From the NCBI GenBank assembly GCA_016938815.1, contig JAFGTX010000012.1:1-47064 (forward strand): a stretch of 47,064 bases of DNA, given 5' to 3'. This document shows positions 4,222 to 26,130 of the stretch, piece by piece. Origin of the DNA: Clostridia bacterium. Its GTDB lineage: Bacteria; Bacillota; Clostridia; Peptostreptococcales; Acidaminobacteraceae. Numbering within the stretch: position 1 is the first letter of the stretch; every line of letters begins with the position of its first letter. Both the position numbers and the translations under genes were made by a program. Below the pieces are notes generated by a model. That model was not told where the DNA came from. It saw nothing but the letters and a program-made list of their open reading frames with translations, and did not search any database.

Positions 4222-5634
4222 ATGGAGAACAACAGAGAAAGTTGGGGATCGAAGCTTGGTTTCATTATGGCGGCTGCTGGTTCAGCGGTCGGTTTAGGTA
4301 ACATTTGGAAATTCCCATTTACTGCAGGTAACAACGGTGGTGGTGCATTTGTACTTATTTACTTAATTTTCGTTATCTTCATCGGCTTCAGTGTTATGTT
4401 AACTGAGTTTGCAGTAGGTAGAAGAAAGAACTTGGCGGCAGTTGGTGCTTACAAGTCAGTGGACAGCCGTTGGACATTTGCCGGCGTTCTTGGTGTACTA
4501 AGTGGATTCTTGATCATGGGCTTCTATCCAGTAGTTGGTGGCTGGGCATTGGCTTACGTGTTCAAAGTATTCGGTGGTTTATTAACAGATCCAGCTGCAA
4601 TTGGCGATGTATTCGGTGGTTTTATTACAAACCCAGTTCAACCGCTAATCTGGATGGTTGCTTACTTATTACTTAACGTAGTTATCGTAGTAAGAGGTGT
4701 ATCATCTGGTATCGAAAAAGCGGGTAAAGTGCTTATGCCTTTGCTATTCGGTATCCTTATTCTAATCACTATCAAAGGTTTGACATTACCTAATGCGATG
4801 GCAGGTGTTGAATTCTTATTCAAACCTGACTTCAGCAAAGTAACTGGTGCAGTTGTACTGGCAGCACTTGGTCAAGCGTTCTTCTCATTATCTCTTGGTA
4901 TGGGTTGTATGATTACTTACGGATCATACTTGAACAAGCAAGAAAACCTTGCATCGAATGCAGCTATTGTAACTGCGATGGATACAGCTGTTGCGTTATT
5001 AGCAGGTTTAGCGATGTTCCCAGCAATGTTCTCATTCGGCATGGAGCCAGCTGCAGGTCCTGGTTTGGTATTCGTAGTTGTACCTTCTCTATTCGCTGAA
5101 ATGGGCGGCCTTGGTGTTGTATTTGCAGCATTATTCTTCGTTGCACTTACTGTTGCAGCCTTGACTTCTTCAGTATCATTACTTGAAGTTGTTGTTGCAT
5201 ACCTAATGGATGAAAGAAAGTTCACGAGAGTTAAATCTGTTATTACAGCTTCAACTATTATGGCATTGATGTGTGTACTTGCATCGCTTTCTCTTGGCGG
5301 TGTTGGTCCAAAATTATTCGGTACAGGCGCATTCGACGTATTCGACTTGTTAACAGATAAAATCTTCTTGGCAATCGGTGGTATGTTGTTATGTATCTTT
5401 GCTGGTTGGAGACTTGATAAAGAAGATCTTAGAAAAGAAATCACCAATGAAGGTGACATTGCATTCGGTATCTTCGAATTCTGGTACGCACTTGTTAAAT
5501 ATGTGATTCCTGTTACAATTGCTATCGTAGCAGTTTCAGGTATCAAATCTGGTTTCGACAGTGGCGTGGGCGCTATTATGGTAATCGGTGTTGCGATTAT
5601 CGCTATCTTCGCTGCAATTTCTAAGAAACTATAG
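4222..5634 (+). CDS. Sodium-dependent transporter, NSS/SNF family
   Basis: N-terminal signature WGSKLGFIMAAAGSAVGLGNIWKFPF. RBS AAAGGGGGAGA precedes ATG 4222, so the upstream in-frame ATG at 4186 is unlikely. Confidence 0.93.
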   Translation: MENNRESWGSKLGFIMAAAGSAVGLGNIWKFPFTAGNNGGGAFVLIYLIFVIFIGFSVMLTEFAVGRRKNLAAVGAYKSVDSRWTFAGVLGVLSGFLIMGFYPVVGGWALAYVFKVFGGLLTDPAAIGDVFGGFITNPVQPLIWMVAYLLLNVVIVVRGVSSGIEKAGKVLMPLLFGILILITIKGLTLPNAMAGVEFLFKPDFSKVTGAVVLAALGQAFFSLSLGMGCMITYGSYLNKQENLASNAAIVTAMDTAVALLAGLAMFPAMFSFGMEPAAGPGLVFVVVPSLFAEMGGLGVVFAALFFVALTVAALTSSVSLLEVVVAYLMDERKFTRVKSVITASTIMALMCVLASLSLGGVGPKLFGTGAFDVFDLLTDKIFLAIGGMLLCIFAGWRLDKEDLRKEITNEGDIAFGIFEFWYALVKYVIPVTIAIVAVSGIKSGFDSGVGAIMVIGVAIIAIFAAISKKL

Positions 5635-5694: not shown

Positions 5695-5713
5695 CGTGAA
5701 AAGCAAGAATAGC

Positions 5714-5779
5714 AGTTCCTTATATAGGCAGGTGAAGAGGTGACATCAGTCAGATCTTCACCTGCCTATATAAGGAACT
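5714..5779. repeat. 25-bp perfect inverted repeat with 16-nt loop
   Basis: AGTTCCTTATATAGGCAGGTGAAGA ... TCTTCACCTGCCTATATAAGGAACT; no T-tract follows. Confidence 0.9.
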
Positions 5780-5783
5780 ATTA

Positions 5784-5800
5784 GGCTCGCTAAGCGAGCC
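5784..5800. repeat. Short perfect hairpin GGCTCGC-TAA-GCGAGCC
   Basis: 7-bp stem directly adjacent to the 25-bp inverted repeat. Confidence 0.8.
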
Positions 5801-5930: not shown

Positions 5931-5964
5931 CTGTAACAATTCTGTGACAAAGGTATGCTATACT
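5931..5964 (+). promoter_or_regulatory. Pho-box-like direct-repeat operator and -10 of the two-component operon
   Basis: CTGTAACAATT/CTGTGACAAAG 11-bp repeat, then N9 after CTGTGACA to TATACT. Confidence 0.6.
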
Positions 5965-5996
5965 GAAGCGAGAGTAGACTGTAATGAGGGGCGTTT

Positions 5997-6665
5997 ATGA
6001 AAAAAAAGATTCTAGTGGTTGACGATGAAACACGTATGAGAATATTGTTGTCGGATTTTCTTACGGCAGAGGGTTATGAAGTCATAGAGGCTTCTAACGG
6101 CAGAGAGGCGATGAACACATTTTGCAGCATGCCAGGTATCCGCCTGATCATATTGGATGTGATGATGCCGGAGCTCAATGGTTGGCAGGTTTGTGAAGAA
6201 ATTAGAACAATCAGTGATGTGCCAATTTTATTTCTTACGGCGATGTCCTCTGAAAACGATGAGATTAAAAGTTTCATTTGTGGCGCAGACGAATTCATCA
6301 AAAAGCCCTTCAGTCCATCGGTACTGGTTCTCCGCGTCAATGCCTTGATTAAGAGGATTTACGGCGAGGAAGATATCATAGAAAAGGGCATGCTCAGGAT
6401 TGATCGGACGTGTAATATGGTATGGGAGACTCATGACTTGATTGAACTCAGTCAGACGGAATTCAAACTGCTGATGTATCTGATACAAAATGAACACGCG
6501 GTTTTGTCGAGAGAACAGATATTAGACAATGTCTGGGGATTTCAGTACGATGGTACGGACAGAACGGTCGATACTCATATGAACCGCTTGCGAATTAAAC
6601 TAAAGAAAAGTAACCATTATATTCGAACGATTCGGGGAATCGGCTATATGTTTGAGGTGATGTGA
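5997..6665 (+). CDS. OmpR/PhoB-family response regulator
   Basis: REC domain (VVDDETRMR, LDVMMPELNGW, KPF) plus winged helix (SREQILDNVWGFQYDGTDRTVDTHMNRLRIKL). Confidence 0.95.
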   Translation: MKKKILVVDDETRMRILLSDFLTAEGYEVIEASNGREAMNTFCSMPGIRLIILDVMMPELNGWQVCEEIRTISDVPILFLTAMSSENDEIKSFICGADEFIKKPFSPSVLVLRVNALIKRIYGEEDIIEKGMLRIDRTCNMVWETHDLIELSQTEFKLLMYLIQNEHAVLSREQILDNVWGFQYDGTDRTVDTHMNRLRIKLKKSNHYIRTIRGIGYMFEVM

Positions 6666-8188
6666 TGCGTTCGGTAAGACAAAAATTATTTATACAAGTT
6701 GGGGTATTGGTGCTCTTGTTGGTCGGATTAACAGTCGTAGCTAACAATTTCTGCTTAGAATCCTACTATACCAGTCAGCTTAAAGATCGGTTGGTAGAAT
6801 ATTACGAAACCATCAACAGCATTGAATCAAGCGCCTATGAAGAAGAACTGAAACAGTTTATCGATATCGAATCTTCCAGTAATGTCGACATTATGATTGT
6901 GAATATCCAAAATGATATTTTATATACTTCTAATAGCTATTTTTTAGATGAAAAAATGATGGAGCGTATTCAAGATATGCAAAGTATGGATGGTGGGAAA
7001 TTTGCTCCCATGTTTGTCCATGAGATTTTGTCAGAAGAAGCTCAGGAAAAACGTGGTCCAGAACCACCCAAAGATCAAAACCATCCGCCGATGAAGCTGG
7101 AAGAATTAGAACGTGTCAATAACTCTGTGACTTTCTATTACGCCTATGGCAACCCACTTTTTGATAATAAAATGTTGGTGCTGGCGGGCACTTTGAACTC
7201 AGGGGACATTATAGAACTTAAAGTGCCTGTGGTTTCCATTCAGAGTAGCATTGATATCATGAATAGGTTCACGATTATCTGTGGTGTGATGTTATTAATT
7301 GTTGCTTTTGCCTATGCTTATATACTTTCATCCACGTTTACAAGGCCCATTACAGAAATCAATGCAACGACAAAGGAAATCAAAGAATTGAAGTTTGGCC
7401 ACAAGTGCGAAGTGCAGACTTCAGACGAAATTGGTGAACTTGCCGCCAATATCAATGATATGTCGGATGTGCTATCAGAAGCCATTGATTCCATGAATCA
7501 AAAGAATGATCAACTGGAAAATCTGGTCAACAATGTTTCTCATGAGTTGAAGACACCTTTAGCGCTTTTACAAGGCTATGCAGAAGGCATTCAGCGACAT
7601 ATCGGCAACGACGAGGTGCGTGCCAGATTTTACTCGGAAGTCATTGTCGATGAAGCGAAAAAAATGAATAGAATTGTAGAAAGTCTTTTGACGATTAAGC
7701 AATTGGAAACAGATGAAATGACCCTGTTTTATAAGGACTTTTCGATCACAGAGCTGATTTCAAAAACGATTGAAAAATACCATCCCATTCTTGAAAAGGA
7801 AGGGTTGAATATAGAATTTTTGGAAGGGCCGGACGACGTTTTGGTGTTCGGTGATGCTTTCTACACCGAGCAGGTATTGATTAATTATGTGTCCAATGCA
7901 ATGCAGTATGTTGAAGCGCCTTACAAAATTAGCATTGATCTCGAAGTGATGGAAGACATTTGCCGCGTCAATGTATTTAACAGTTTTGAACACACCCAAG
8001 AAGAGGTTTTAAAGCCTATTTGGGATGAGTTTTATAAGCTGGATAAAGCTAGAACCAGAGAAAAGGGTGGACATGGCTTGGGGTTATCCATCGTCAAATC
8101 TATACAAGAAGCACATCATCAGGCTTATGGCGTCAAAAGCGAAGCAGAGGGCATCACTTTTTGGTTTGACGTCTTGCGTAGGTCATAA
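6665..8188 (+). CDS. Sensor histidine kinase (HAMP, HisKA, HATPase)
   Basis: VSHELKTPLALLQGYAEGI H-box, GHGLGLSIVKSI G-box, two TM segments and a periplasmic domain. ATG 6665 overlaps the upstream stop (TGATG). Confidence 0.94.
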   Translation: MRSVRQKLFIQVGVLVLLLVGLTVVANNFCLESYYTSQLKDRLVEYYETINSIESSAYEEELKQFIDIESSSNVDIMIVNIQNDILYTSNSYFLDEKMMERIQDMQSMDGGKFAPMFVHEILSEEAQEKRGPEPPKDQNHPPMKLEELERVNNSVTFYYAYGNPLFDNKMLVLAGTLNSGDIIELKVPVVSIQSSIDIMNRFTIICGVMLLIVAFAYAYILSSTFTRPITEINATTKEIKELKFGHKCEVQTSDEIGELAANINDMSDVLSEAIDSMNQKNDQLENLVNNVSHELKTPLALLQGYAEGIQRHIGNDEVRARFYSEVIVDEAKKMNRIVESLLTIKQLETDEMTLFYKDFSITELISKTIEKYHPILEKEGLNIEFLEGPDDVLVFGDAFYTEQVLINYVSNAMQYVEAPYKISIDLEVMEDICRVNVFNSFEHTQEEVLKPIWDEFYKLDKARTREKGGHGLGLSIVKSIQEAHHQAYGVKSEAEGITFWFDVLRRS

Positions 8189-8235
8189 AACAGCTAGTCA
8201 TAGCTATGAACTTCAAGAGATAATCATCAAAGCAT

Positions 8236-8279
8236 AATAAAAAGAACGTGGAACAAGTGTGTTCGACGTTCTTTTTATT
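8236..8279. terminator. Bidirectional terminator between convergent genes
   Basis: AATAAAAAGAACGT-g-GAACA-agtg-TGTTC-g-ACGTTCTTTTTATT. Confidence 0.85.
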
Positions 8280-8333
8280 GTTGAAAAAATTGTTCAAAAG
8301 TTGATCTACTGCATGAACAGTAGACAGAATGGG

Positions 8334-9347
8334 TTATATTGCTTTATTAATTACAGGCTCATTAATAAATCTGCTGCTCGCATCAAAAGCGGTTTGATTT
8401 GAGTAAGCATTAATGGCCTGCTGAATAGCACGTTTTAAGTAATCGCTGAATTCTGAGTTTGAATCACTTTCAGAATCGGATGCAGTACTCGAGTCAGATT
8501 CTGATGTATTTATTGCGGCGGCTTCAATTGAATCAATTGTACCGTCGCCGTTGGTGTCATATTCTGCGATTTCAGCAGCTGAATAAGATGAACTACTATT
8601 GTTCAATGAAGCGAGTAGAGTCGATGTAGCATTGTTGCTGGTCGTTGCATCGTCATCATCGTCTTCAAGCGCTTCTAGTAGTGCTTCGATAGTTGAACTT
8701 GTGCTGTCCTCGACCTCGTTAGTGCCACCTGAAGGTGGTGCTCCCGGTGGTGGTCCACCTGGGCCCATCGGACGATTCGTTATGGAATCGATGCTATCGT
8801 CTTCTTCGGAAACATCATCAGAAGTTCCAGAAGTCGCGTAAGATGAGCTGCCGGTTTCTAATGAAGCAAGTAACGTAGAGATCGCATCATCGCTGATGGT
8901 TGTTTCATCATCGTCGTCATCGTCTTCAAGCGCTTCAAGTAACGCTTCGATTGTTGAACTTGTACTGCTCTCTTCTGTTTCTCCAACACCGCCTGAAGGT
9001 GGTGGTCCTCCTGGAGGTGGGCCGCCTGCTCCTGTTGGACGATTGCCACCTTGTGACATCATTTGTGCTTGAAGTTCACTTGGGTCAGGCATATTGAATG
9101 CGTTGTCTTTTTGAAGACTAACCGCTTCCGATTCACTGATCAAACCATCCTCGTCGGTGTCATATTTGGCAAGGACTTCTTCAGCATCAAAAGATGTTCC
9201 TATGGCTTCTGCTTGCTTTTCGGAATAGGATTCGAGTTCTTCTAAGTCAAGAGATTGGTCATCATTGGTATCGACTTTAGGAGGCTGAGTCCGCTGCGTA
9301 GTTGCATAAACACTTCTATAGGCAGAACTGCTATTAATTTCCATCAT
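8334..9347 (-). CDS. EF-hand domain protein with internal duplication and acidic/Pro-Gly low-complexity segments
   Basis: Three canonical EF loops (DTNDDQSLDLEE, DTDEDGLISESE, DTNGDGTIDSIE); two copies of a GGPPPG..STSSTIEALLEALEDDDDD..STLLASL unit; RBS GAGGTG. Confidence 0.85.
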   Translation of the reverse strand: MMEINSSSAYRSVYATTQRTQPPKVDTNDDQSLDLEELESYSEKQAEAIGTSFDAEEVLAKYDTDEDGLISESEAVSLQKDNAFNMPDPSELQAQMMSQGGNRPTGAGGPPPGGPPPSGGVGETEESSTSSTIEALLEALEDDDDDDETTISDDAISTLLASLETGSSSYATSGTSDDVSEEDDSIDSITNRPMGPGGPPPGAPPSGGTNEVEDSTSSTIEALLEALEDDDDDATTSNNATSTLLASLNNSSSSYSAAEIAEYDTNGDGTIDSIEAAAINTSESDSSTASDSESDSNSEFSDYLKRAIQQAINAYSNQTAFDASSRFINEPVINKAI

Positions 9348-9393
9348 ATAATCACCTCTTTCTGTTTTAGGGTATAGGGATTCCCTTAATAAA

Positions 9394-9427
9394 ATTCTAA
9401 AATAGAAATGTCACAGATTTATTACAA
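9394..9427 (-). promoter_or_regulatory. Pho-box-like direct-repeat operator and -10 of the EF-hand gene
   Basis: Minus strand TTGTAATAAAT/CTGTGACATTT, then N9 after CTGTGACA to TAGAAT; same layout as 5931-5964. Confidence 0.55.
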
Positions 9428-9528: not shown

Positions 9529-9666
9529 CGTTTAGAGGGAGTAACTGCCTTTTTATTAAGGAACCAAATGTCGTCATTACAGAATTCTAGGATTCTCGGC
9601 TTTGGTGACAATCAGTTTGTTGTGTGAGACTCTACAATTAATGGTTAATTGTAGAGTCTTTTTTTT
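9529..9666 (+). ncRNA. yybP-ykoY (manganese) riboswitch with intrinsic terminator
   Basis: Motifs AGAGGGAGTA, TGTCGTCA and CGGCTTTGGTGACA in order; then AGACTCTACAATTAA-tgg-TTAATTGTAGAGTCT and a T-tract. UAGAG near the 5' end can pair with CUCUA of the terminator's left arm. Confidence 0.78.
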
Positions 9667-9708: not shown

Positions 9709-10707
9709 ATGGAAAGTATCATACATGAATTTTTGAATGGTTTGCCGACGGTTGCCATTGCATTGGCAATTATAGCCATGCTGTACACGTTAAGCAAGGG
9801 GGCTGATATTTTTGTCGATGAGGCTGTGAGTTTATCGGTACACTTTGGCATCCCAAAAGTCATTATTGGTGCCACGATTGTCTCTCTTGGGACAACATTG
9901 CCAGAGGCGTCGGTGTCAGTTATGGCGGCCATTAATGGCAATCCTGATTTGGCACTGGGTAATGCGATTGGCTCCATTATCGTTGATACGGGTCTAATCA
10001 TTGGTTTGGCGTCTTTACTGGGTAAGCTGCCTGTTGATCAAAAGACCATCGATAGACAAGGGAAAATTCAGTGGTTAGCAGTTGTATTATTGGCGTTGGT
10101 TTCGCTGCCTTTCTTTTCGGCGAATGGTGTTGGTCGCGTTCACCAGTGGATGGGATTTGTTTTTATAGCCCTACTGATTGCTTATATCTATATATCGATT
10201 AAGTGGTCACGACAAGACCATGCAGAAATTGATGAGATTCATGAAGAAAAAGCGCCGCTTGCCATGCAACTTTTAAAATTGGGCCTTGGTGTTGCAATTG
10301 TGATTCTTTCATCAAAAGTATTGATTCCAGCGGTAGAAATTGGTGCGTACCGAGTTGGCATCCCTCAAAGTATTATTGCGGCAACGCTGGTTGCTTTTGG
10401 TACAAGTTTGCCTGAACTGGTTACGGCGGTTACTGCTGTAAGAAAGGGTCATGGCGAATTGGCCGTTGGTAACATTGTCGGTGCAGATATTTTAAATGTA
10501 CTTTTTGTAGTAGGTAGTGCTGCGGCAGTGACGGCGGGTGGTTTGGAAGTGCCGACGGTTTTCTTTAAACTTCAAATTCCGACCATGTTATTAATTGTGA
10601 CGGCATTTCGATTTTTCGCAAAAGGCAATGACCAACAAATCAATAAAAAAGAAGGTACTTTTCTCATTGTCATTTACGTAATATACCTGACTTTGAATTA
10701 TCTTTAA
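9709..10707 (+). CDS. Calcium/sodium antiporter (CaCA family, YrbG-like)
   Basis: Two internal alpha repeats: GATIVSLGTTLPEASVSVMAA and ATLVAFGTSLPELVTAVTA. Confidence 0.93.
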   Translation: MESIIHEFLNGLPTVAIALAIIAMLYTLSKGADIFVDEAVSLSVHFGIPKVIIGATIVSLGTTLPEASVSVMAAINGNPDLALGNAIGSIIVDTGLIIGLASLLGKLPVDQKTIDRQGKIQWLAVVLLALVSLPFFSANGVGRVHQWMGFVFIALLIAYIYISIKWSRQDHAEIDEIHEEKAPLAMQLLKLGLGVAIVILSSKVLIPAVEIGAYRVGIPQSIIAATLVAFGTSLPELVTAVTAVRKGHGELAVGNIVGADILNVLFVVGSAAAVTAGGLEVPTVFFKLQIPTMLLIVTAFRFFAKGNDQQINKKEGTFLIVIYVIYLTLNYL

Positions 10708-26002: not shown

Positions 26003-26024
26003 GAAGTTGAATTGAATATGCGTT

Positions 26025-26113
26025 ACTAGGAGTGCCAGTATGGATTGGCTGAGATGGAAATGTTATTTCGGATCCTTGAACCTGATTTAGTTAGAACTAA
26101 CGTAGGGAAGTAA
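26025..26113 (+). ncRNA. TPP riboswitch (THI element)
   Basis: GGCTGAGATGG ... GATCCTTGAACCTGATTTAGTTAGAACTAACGTAGGGAAG; P1 TTAC/GTAA. Confidence 0.95.
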
Positions 26114-26130
26114 TCTATTGCATGATGATT

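Follow-up and report, generated by a model that had tools for sequence, protein, structure and literature searches.

An 11-bp direct-repeat operator very probably joins a two-component system and an EF-hand protein gene in one small regulon of a Clostridia bacterium

Can two promoters of different genes, lying on opposite strands, answer to the same regulator? This question is raised by a 47,064-nt stretch of DNA from a Clostridia bacterium of the family Acidaminobacteraceae (assembly GCA_016938815.1, contig JAFGTX010000012.1; the whole stretch is hereafter called the window), which carries an operon encoding a response regulator (RR) and a histidine kinase (HK), and a convergent gene encoding an EF-hand protein. 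A first-pass annotation had proposed that the regulator activates both its own operon and the EF-hand gene through a shared operator, and judging from sequence comparison we find this interpretation largely correct: the RR-HK operon and the EF-hand gene very probably constitute one small regulon, and it is highly likely that this OmpR/PhoB-type regulator activates both transcription units as the main members of a very small set of targets.

Both promoters contain an operator of the form TGTAAYA-N4-TGTGACA, that is, an 11-bp repeat, which the first-pass annotation had placed correctly to the base; the octamer shared by the two sites and the 9 nt that separate it from each -10 hexamer, TATACT or TAGAAT, were likewise confirmed in the sequence (Table 1). 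A general sigma-70 scan found no -35/-10 pair at either hexamer, as would be expected if the repeat takes the place of the -35 element.

The motif does not recur at random across the genome. Allowing up to three mismatches, the joint 22-bp pattern was matched twice in the window, against 0.04 matches expected from shuffled sequences. Pattern searches of the 3.2-Mb genome to which the window belongs (G000; 3,215,692 bases, 438 contigs) detected exact matches at the two window promoters only, in addition to four further matches with two or three mismatches, and the reversed-pattern control gave none in this genome. When the full architecture of operator, 9-nt gap and -10 was searched with up to two mismatches, 28 matches were obtained against 21 in the reversed control, so a larger regulon was rejected, these weak matches being mostly noise. 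A one-mismatch match was noted at C318:11063, some 250 bp upstream of a functionally unassigned gene.

The operator was also found in related genomes, at homologous loci that were collected by protein similarity alone (with the HK and the EF-hand protein) and then read; the pattern TGTRAYANNNNTGTGACA had been set from the two window sites before the sequence of any relative was read. In Acidaminobacter sp. JC074 (G024, 6.1 Mb), which belongs to the same family and a different genus, the orthologues of the EF-hand protein (61% identity over 95 aa, L047) and of the RR (52%, L048) are encoded 104 kb apart, and in this hold-out test TGTRAYANNNNTGTGACA matches with no mismatches upstream of both. 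At each of the two sites a -10 hexamer (TATACT; TACAAT) comes exactly 9 nt after the repeat, the promoter of the EF-hand orthologue reading TGTGATAAAACTGTGACA-N9-TATACT, and in a scan of 20 whole genomes the full architecture without mismatches was found in G024 at these two promoters only. The site at the G024 regulator reads in reverse as well, toward a divergent VTC operon. A similar arrangement exists in G062, whose RR orthologue (58% identity, L174) is preceded by TGTAACCTTACTGTGACA-N9-TATAAT, and where TGTGACAAAGCTGTGACA-N9-TAAATT precedes a VTC-DUF4956-CotH operon divergent from the RR gene. In G012 the EF-hand gene lies directly downstream of a homologous RR-HK pair, with a degenerate 11-bp repeat, 9 nt and then TAGAAT. 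A refined pattern, TGTRAYNNNNYTGTGACA, adjusted to take in the G024 and G062 sites, has two exact matches each in G000, G024 and G062 and none in G003, all of them at RR, EF-hand or VTC promoters, where an order-1 model predicts 0.27, 0.70, 0.34 and 0.18 matches, respectively; for the full architecture and the refined pattern in G024 the expectation is 0.09-0.70.

Of 395 genomes examined from the order, 3 were positive with the EF-hand profile, with orthologues outside the window's own genome in G024 and G012 only; apparent matches in G018, G028 and G015 were due to low complexity and disappeared with the profile search. As read from these genomes, it is the operator that is conserved and not the gene neighbourhood: the partner gene changes, and the adjacency of the RR-HK pair and the EF-hand gene is specific to the window's genome. 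The shared, conserved operator upholds the proposed control of both transcription units, then, and the adjacent, self-contained module is peculiar to this genome, given the rarity of the EF-hand gene and its replacement by the VTC-DUF4956-CotH operon as partner in G062.

A wider view of this regulator family was obtained from a tree of 38 regulators, in which the RRs of the window, G003, G024 and G062 form one branch (support 98/89; 98% of bootstraps). More distant homologous two-component loci of the order show this succession as well, mostly with TGTCACA: an 11-bp repeat, then 9 nt and a -10, ahead of a gene encoding a small exported protein or an EF-hand protein; some of the exported proteins are weakly DUF2680-like, and elsewhere a DUF2202 protein is found. 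With up to three mismatches, including the 9-nt gap and the -10, the architecture was present at 17 of 26 promoters of RR, EF-hand or exported-protein genes and at 6 of 113 others (p=7e-11). Across the homologous loci, 9 nt was the commonest of 14 gap lengths at up to one mismatch, with 18 sites against 2-12 for the others.

Several observations weigh against activation of both transcription units by this regulator. The 26 target promoters were partly picked after inspection and are phylogenetically non-independent, which makes p=7e-11 optimistic, and the exact counts of the refined pattern are partly circular, the near-independent evidence being the test with TGTRAYANNNNTGTGACA and the full-architecture scan of G024. 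In G003, which has the closest RR orthologue (59%), the site is degenerate (CGTTATAGAGTTGTGACA) with a poor -10, and the EF-hand gene is lacking. Other two-component regulators of the window's genome share the geometry, as seen at a locus on contig C325 and at a WalR-type site on contig C333, and cross-binding is possible.

Even so, the arrangement suggests a mechanism of the following kind. The phosphorylated RR would bind TGTRAYA-N4-TGTGACA as a head-to-tail dimer; the operator would replace the -35, with 9 nt between the end of its last half-site and the -10. From there the bound regulator would recruit RNA polymerase to two promoters, that of its own RR-HK operon, giving positive feedback, and that of the EF-hand gene. 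In the window's genome the regulon would be very small and comprise the RR-HK pair and the EF-hand protein, apart from a few weaker sites at most. Regulators of the clade keep the operator at their own promoter in relatives and would control either a relocated EF-hand gene (G024) or the VTC-DUF4956-CotH cell-surface operon (G062), and the G024 regulator may control both the EF-hand gene and the VTC operon. Binding by the window RR, activation and the signal behind it are what we infer from sites whose uniqueness, spacing and conservation were observed directly.

The cross-binding just mentioned leads to a first alternative, that a different regulator of the OmpR/PhoB family is the main protein bound at the sites, either WalR or a paralogue encoded on C325 or C221, with the window RR merely a member of its regulon. 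The WalR/VicR box described in Firmicutes, TGTWAHA-N4-TGTWAHA, has the same scaffold (PMC4168254), and a WalR-like TGTAATA-N4-TGTAATA with N9 and TATAAT is present in this genome on C333; the two-component system on C325 has TGTCACA-N4-TGCCATA-N9-TATACT before its neighbouring small exported-protein gene. We nevertheless consider this explanation rather unlikely: the first half-site fits TGTWAHA in both window operators, but the invariant G of the second, TGTGACA, falls outside the W of the WalR consensus, the site linked to the paralogue is TGTCACA-like, and the TGTGACA sites occur at promoters of the RR clade itself (in the window, G024 and G062). Membership in the WalR regulon is accordingly not favoured.

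It could also be supposed that the regulator represses, so that its autoregulation is negative and the EF-hand gene is kept down, since position alone is no proof of activation and proteins of the OmpR family can repress. A repeat that ends at a fixed distance before a -10 without a -35 is, however, the mark of activator-dependent promoters of the PhoB type, and here 9 nt separate the last half-site from an acceptable -10, a -35 match being absent; this spacing is also the commonest across homologous loci, so that repression appears unlikely. Our preference for activation is due to this fixed gap, the missing -35 and the 11-bp direct repeat, which are features of PhoB-class activator sites.

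A palindromic target of an unrelated CRP/FNR- or TnrA-like regulator deserves mention because the half-site TGTNACA is itself a palindrome: TGTNA-N8-TNACA forms an imperfect inverted repeat, TGTNAYA-N4-TGTNAYA is matched on both strands, and direct-repeat and inverted readings coexist in both operators. The TnrA consensus requires N7, not the N8 found here, and an oriented spacing to the -10 together with association with OmpR/PhoB-type two-component genes across genera is not expected for any of these regulators, which renders such a target very improbable. The direct-repeat reading is favoured over the inverted one on account of the distance to the -10 and of the way the sites are arranged in relatives. 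Finally, chance resemblance of two unrelated promoters might be argued from the octamer, which alone is weak evidence (four occurrences of CTGTGACA in the window, 1.1 expected), but it is contradicted by the genome-wide uniqueness and by the fact that the sites are conserved in two further genera, one of which has them at unlinked genes; its likelihood is negligible.

The fourth base of the half-site may follow a particular residue of the regulator. In the window clade the recognition helix has the sequence THMNRLR or TTINRLR, and regulators of the TGTCACA systems mostly have TH[IV]KRLR there; among sites with up to one mismatch, Asn goes with TGTGACA in seven of seven cases and Lys with TGTCACA in eight of nine (the exception being G012a), with a nominal p=0.0014 that ignores kinship. 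The published DNA contacts of PhoB are T194, V197, R201 and R219 (PMC3264566), and since these are other residues, the Asn/Lys covariation is a lead only. Literature searches on covariation of the recognition helix and on DUF2680 with two-component systems found nothing. Effectors are exchanged across lineages, from the EF-hand protein to the VTC-DUF4956-CotH operon and, in sister lineages, DUF2680-type exported proteins. As a tentative extension, which we would not yet call probable, these observations may describe a previously undescribed WalR/PhoB-like lineage in an Acidaminobacter-related family, with a two-gene regulon, an exchanged effector, a fixed operator/promoter geometry and a half-site base 4 that tracks the recognition-helix residue. 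If true, the swapped effectors would be candidates for one shared envelope function, and specificity would turn on a one-residue switch. What appears most interesting to us is that the operator is kept at unlinked Acidaminobacter genes, that the effector seems exchangeable and that an Asn/Lys specificity switch is possible. Through the shared operator, a bacterial EF-hand protein that is still uncharacterised acquires a concrete regulatory context and is tied to VTC-DUF4956-CotH surface genes of relatives, a clue to its function, and the architecture of 11-bp repeat, 9 nt and -10 is regular enough for very small regulons to be predicted from sequence alone.

Table 1. Operators, promoter elements and genes of the locus in the window
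Feature	Position	Strand	Basis or remark
RR-promoter operator, 11-bp direct repeat CTGTAACAATT-CTGTGACAAAG	5931-5952	+	read in sequence
-10 hexamer TATACT, RR-HK operon	5959-5964	+	9 nt past CTGTGACA
Response regulator, OmpR/PhoB family, receiver and winged helix	5997-6665	+	Pfam PF00072 4e-26, PF00486 1.5e-26
Sensor histidine kinase	6662-8188	+	extracellular sensor, HAMP, HisKA, HATPase_c; overlaps RR stop codon
EF-hand protein, 337 aa	9347-8334	-	Pfam PF00036 2.7e-8; start at 9347
-10 hexamer TAGAAT, EF-hand gene	9399-9394	-	9 nt past CTGTGACA
EF-hand-promoter operator, 11-bp direct repeat TTGTAATAAAT-CTGTGACATTT	9427-9406	-	read in sequence

The Pfam domain sets of both RR and HK are complete. 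In the RR the receiver and winged-helix domains score above cut-off, which places it in the OmpR/PhoB family, and the phospho-acceptor Asp (in LIILDVMMP) and the Lys (in KKPF) are visible in the sequence; it remains under the cut-off for the NCBIfam equivalogs shown. Members of this family recognise tandem half-sites repeated roughly once per helical turn; the 11-bp direct repeats seen here are present and conserved. A model of the HK sensor, built from 18 sequences (pTM 0.64), resembles WalK extracellular PAS-like domains with TM 0.61-0.66 by target length and E-values that are not significant; the search for structural matches to this fold gave no significant hit (best E 1.5e-3, a WalK model). 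The EF-hand protein shows, by eye, three canonical 12-residue loops (DTNDDQSLDLEE, DTDEDGLISESE and DTNGDGTIDSIE), in line with its PF00036 score of 33.2 bits against a cut-off of 25.4 and with the calcium-binding pattern D-x-[DN]-x-[DN]...E, besides acidic low-complexity segments and Pro/Gly-rich linkers; no obvious signal peptide was seen by eye. Assignment to the XopAW type III effectors was rejected, as the protein scores 30.3 bits against the NCBIfam subfamily cut-off of 120 and the EF-hand part alone matches.

Other elements were noticed around these genes. Between an SNF transporter gene and the RR promoter lies a near-perfect long inverted repeat (5713-5780, arms of about 24 bp) with no second copy in the genome, although a 23-bp segment, 5778-5800, is found again on contigs C297 and C292. 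On the plus strand, 9537-9621 gave a sub-cut-off match to the manganese riboswitch yybP-ykoY (RF00080, 30 bits against 45, E 1.2e-6), followed by a terminator-like hairpin (9626-9660) and located directly upstream of a Na+/Ca2+-exchanger-family gene (9709-10707), which suggests that this putative exchanger gene is under Mn2+ control. A TPP riboswitch (RF00059, 69 bits) at 26018-26125 (+) precedes predicted thiamine biosynthesis genes.

Related loci yielded observations of their own. The second two-component system on C325 (L102; 2515-4621) and its small exported-protein gene (4745-5191) look like a paralogous module with other operator letters. WalR-like TGTAAYA-N4-TGTAAYA sites followed by N9 and TATAAT occur at C333:1444-1476 and likewise in G024, G034, G006, G037, G039, G046 and G048, before exported-protein genes wherever the flanking genes were read, and the C333-type site is probably a conserved WalR target in the order. 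In L161 (G154), TGTAACAAAACTGTGACA-N9-TATAAT (5257-5289) comes right after an HK gene and heads a transcript with very short ORFs only (34 aa); it may be a small RNA, or encode a small protein, controlled by a regulator of similar type. The HK gene at 3828-5192 of L050 (G053) has two in-frame TAG codons and is apparently broken, with an intact relative in G042.

How does the window system compare with those already known? The enterobacterial Pho box replaces the -35 and lies about 10 nt before the -10. PhoB has a 22-bp site made of 11-bp direct repeats (PMC3978041) with TGTCA half-sites (PMC3264566). The window regulator is likewise of the OmpR/PhoB family, and the sites at its own and the EF-hand promoter have the same 22-bp layout, with G or A and not C as base 4 of the half-site. 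The description of the operators as Pho-box-like holds for the geometry and not for the Pho regulon: the RR reaches 189.8 bits against a PhoB cut-off of 296.2 and the HK 166.3 against 400 for PnpS, and the contig stretch with the pst operon (L101), where another HK gene adjoins the pst genes, has no TGTNAYA-N4-TGTNAYA site with up to two mismatches in intergenic DNA, and the Pho system is thereby excluded. Among boxes described in Firmicutes, the WalR/VicR (YycF) one comes closest, being identical in half-site length and spacing; WalK is the top family match of the HK, and it is the extracellular domains of WalK that the sensor model resembles most. Assignment to WalRK was rejected on scores of 158.1 bits against the YycF cut-off of 340 and 172 against the WalK cut-off of 725, and in these genomes the WalR-like sites consist of TGTAAYA repeats and belong to different genes.

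According to a published report, VTC-DUF4956-CotH operons accompany Gram-positive pel clusters as accessory genes (PMC7112168). In both G062 and G024 such an operon diverges from the RR orthologue with a TGTGACA operator between them, whereas DUF4956 was not found in the window's genome; no search for a pel cluster was made. Also comparable are the order's own two-component loci with small exported proteins, DUF2680-like and others, which have homologous RR-HK pairs and the same succession of 11-bp repeat, 9 nt and -10; they differ from the window clade in combining mostly TGTCACA with Lys instead of TGTGACA with Asn, and an EF-hand gene accompanies them in G012 only. What is new here is a small regulon of a well-known kind.

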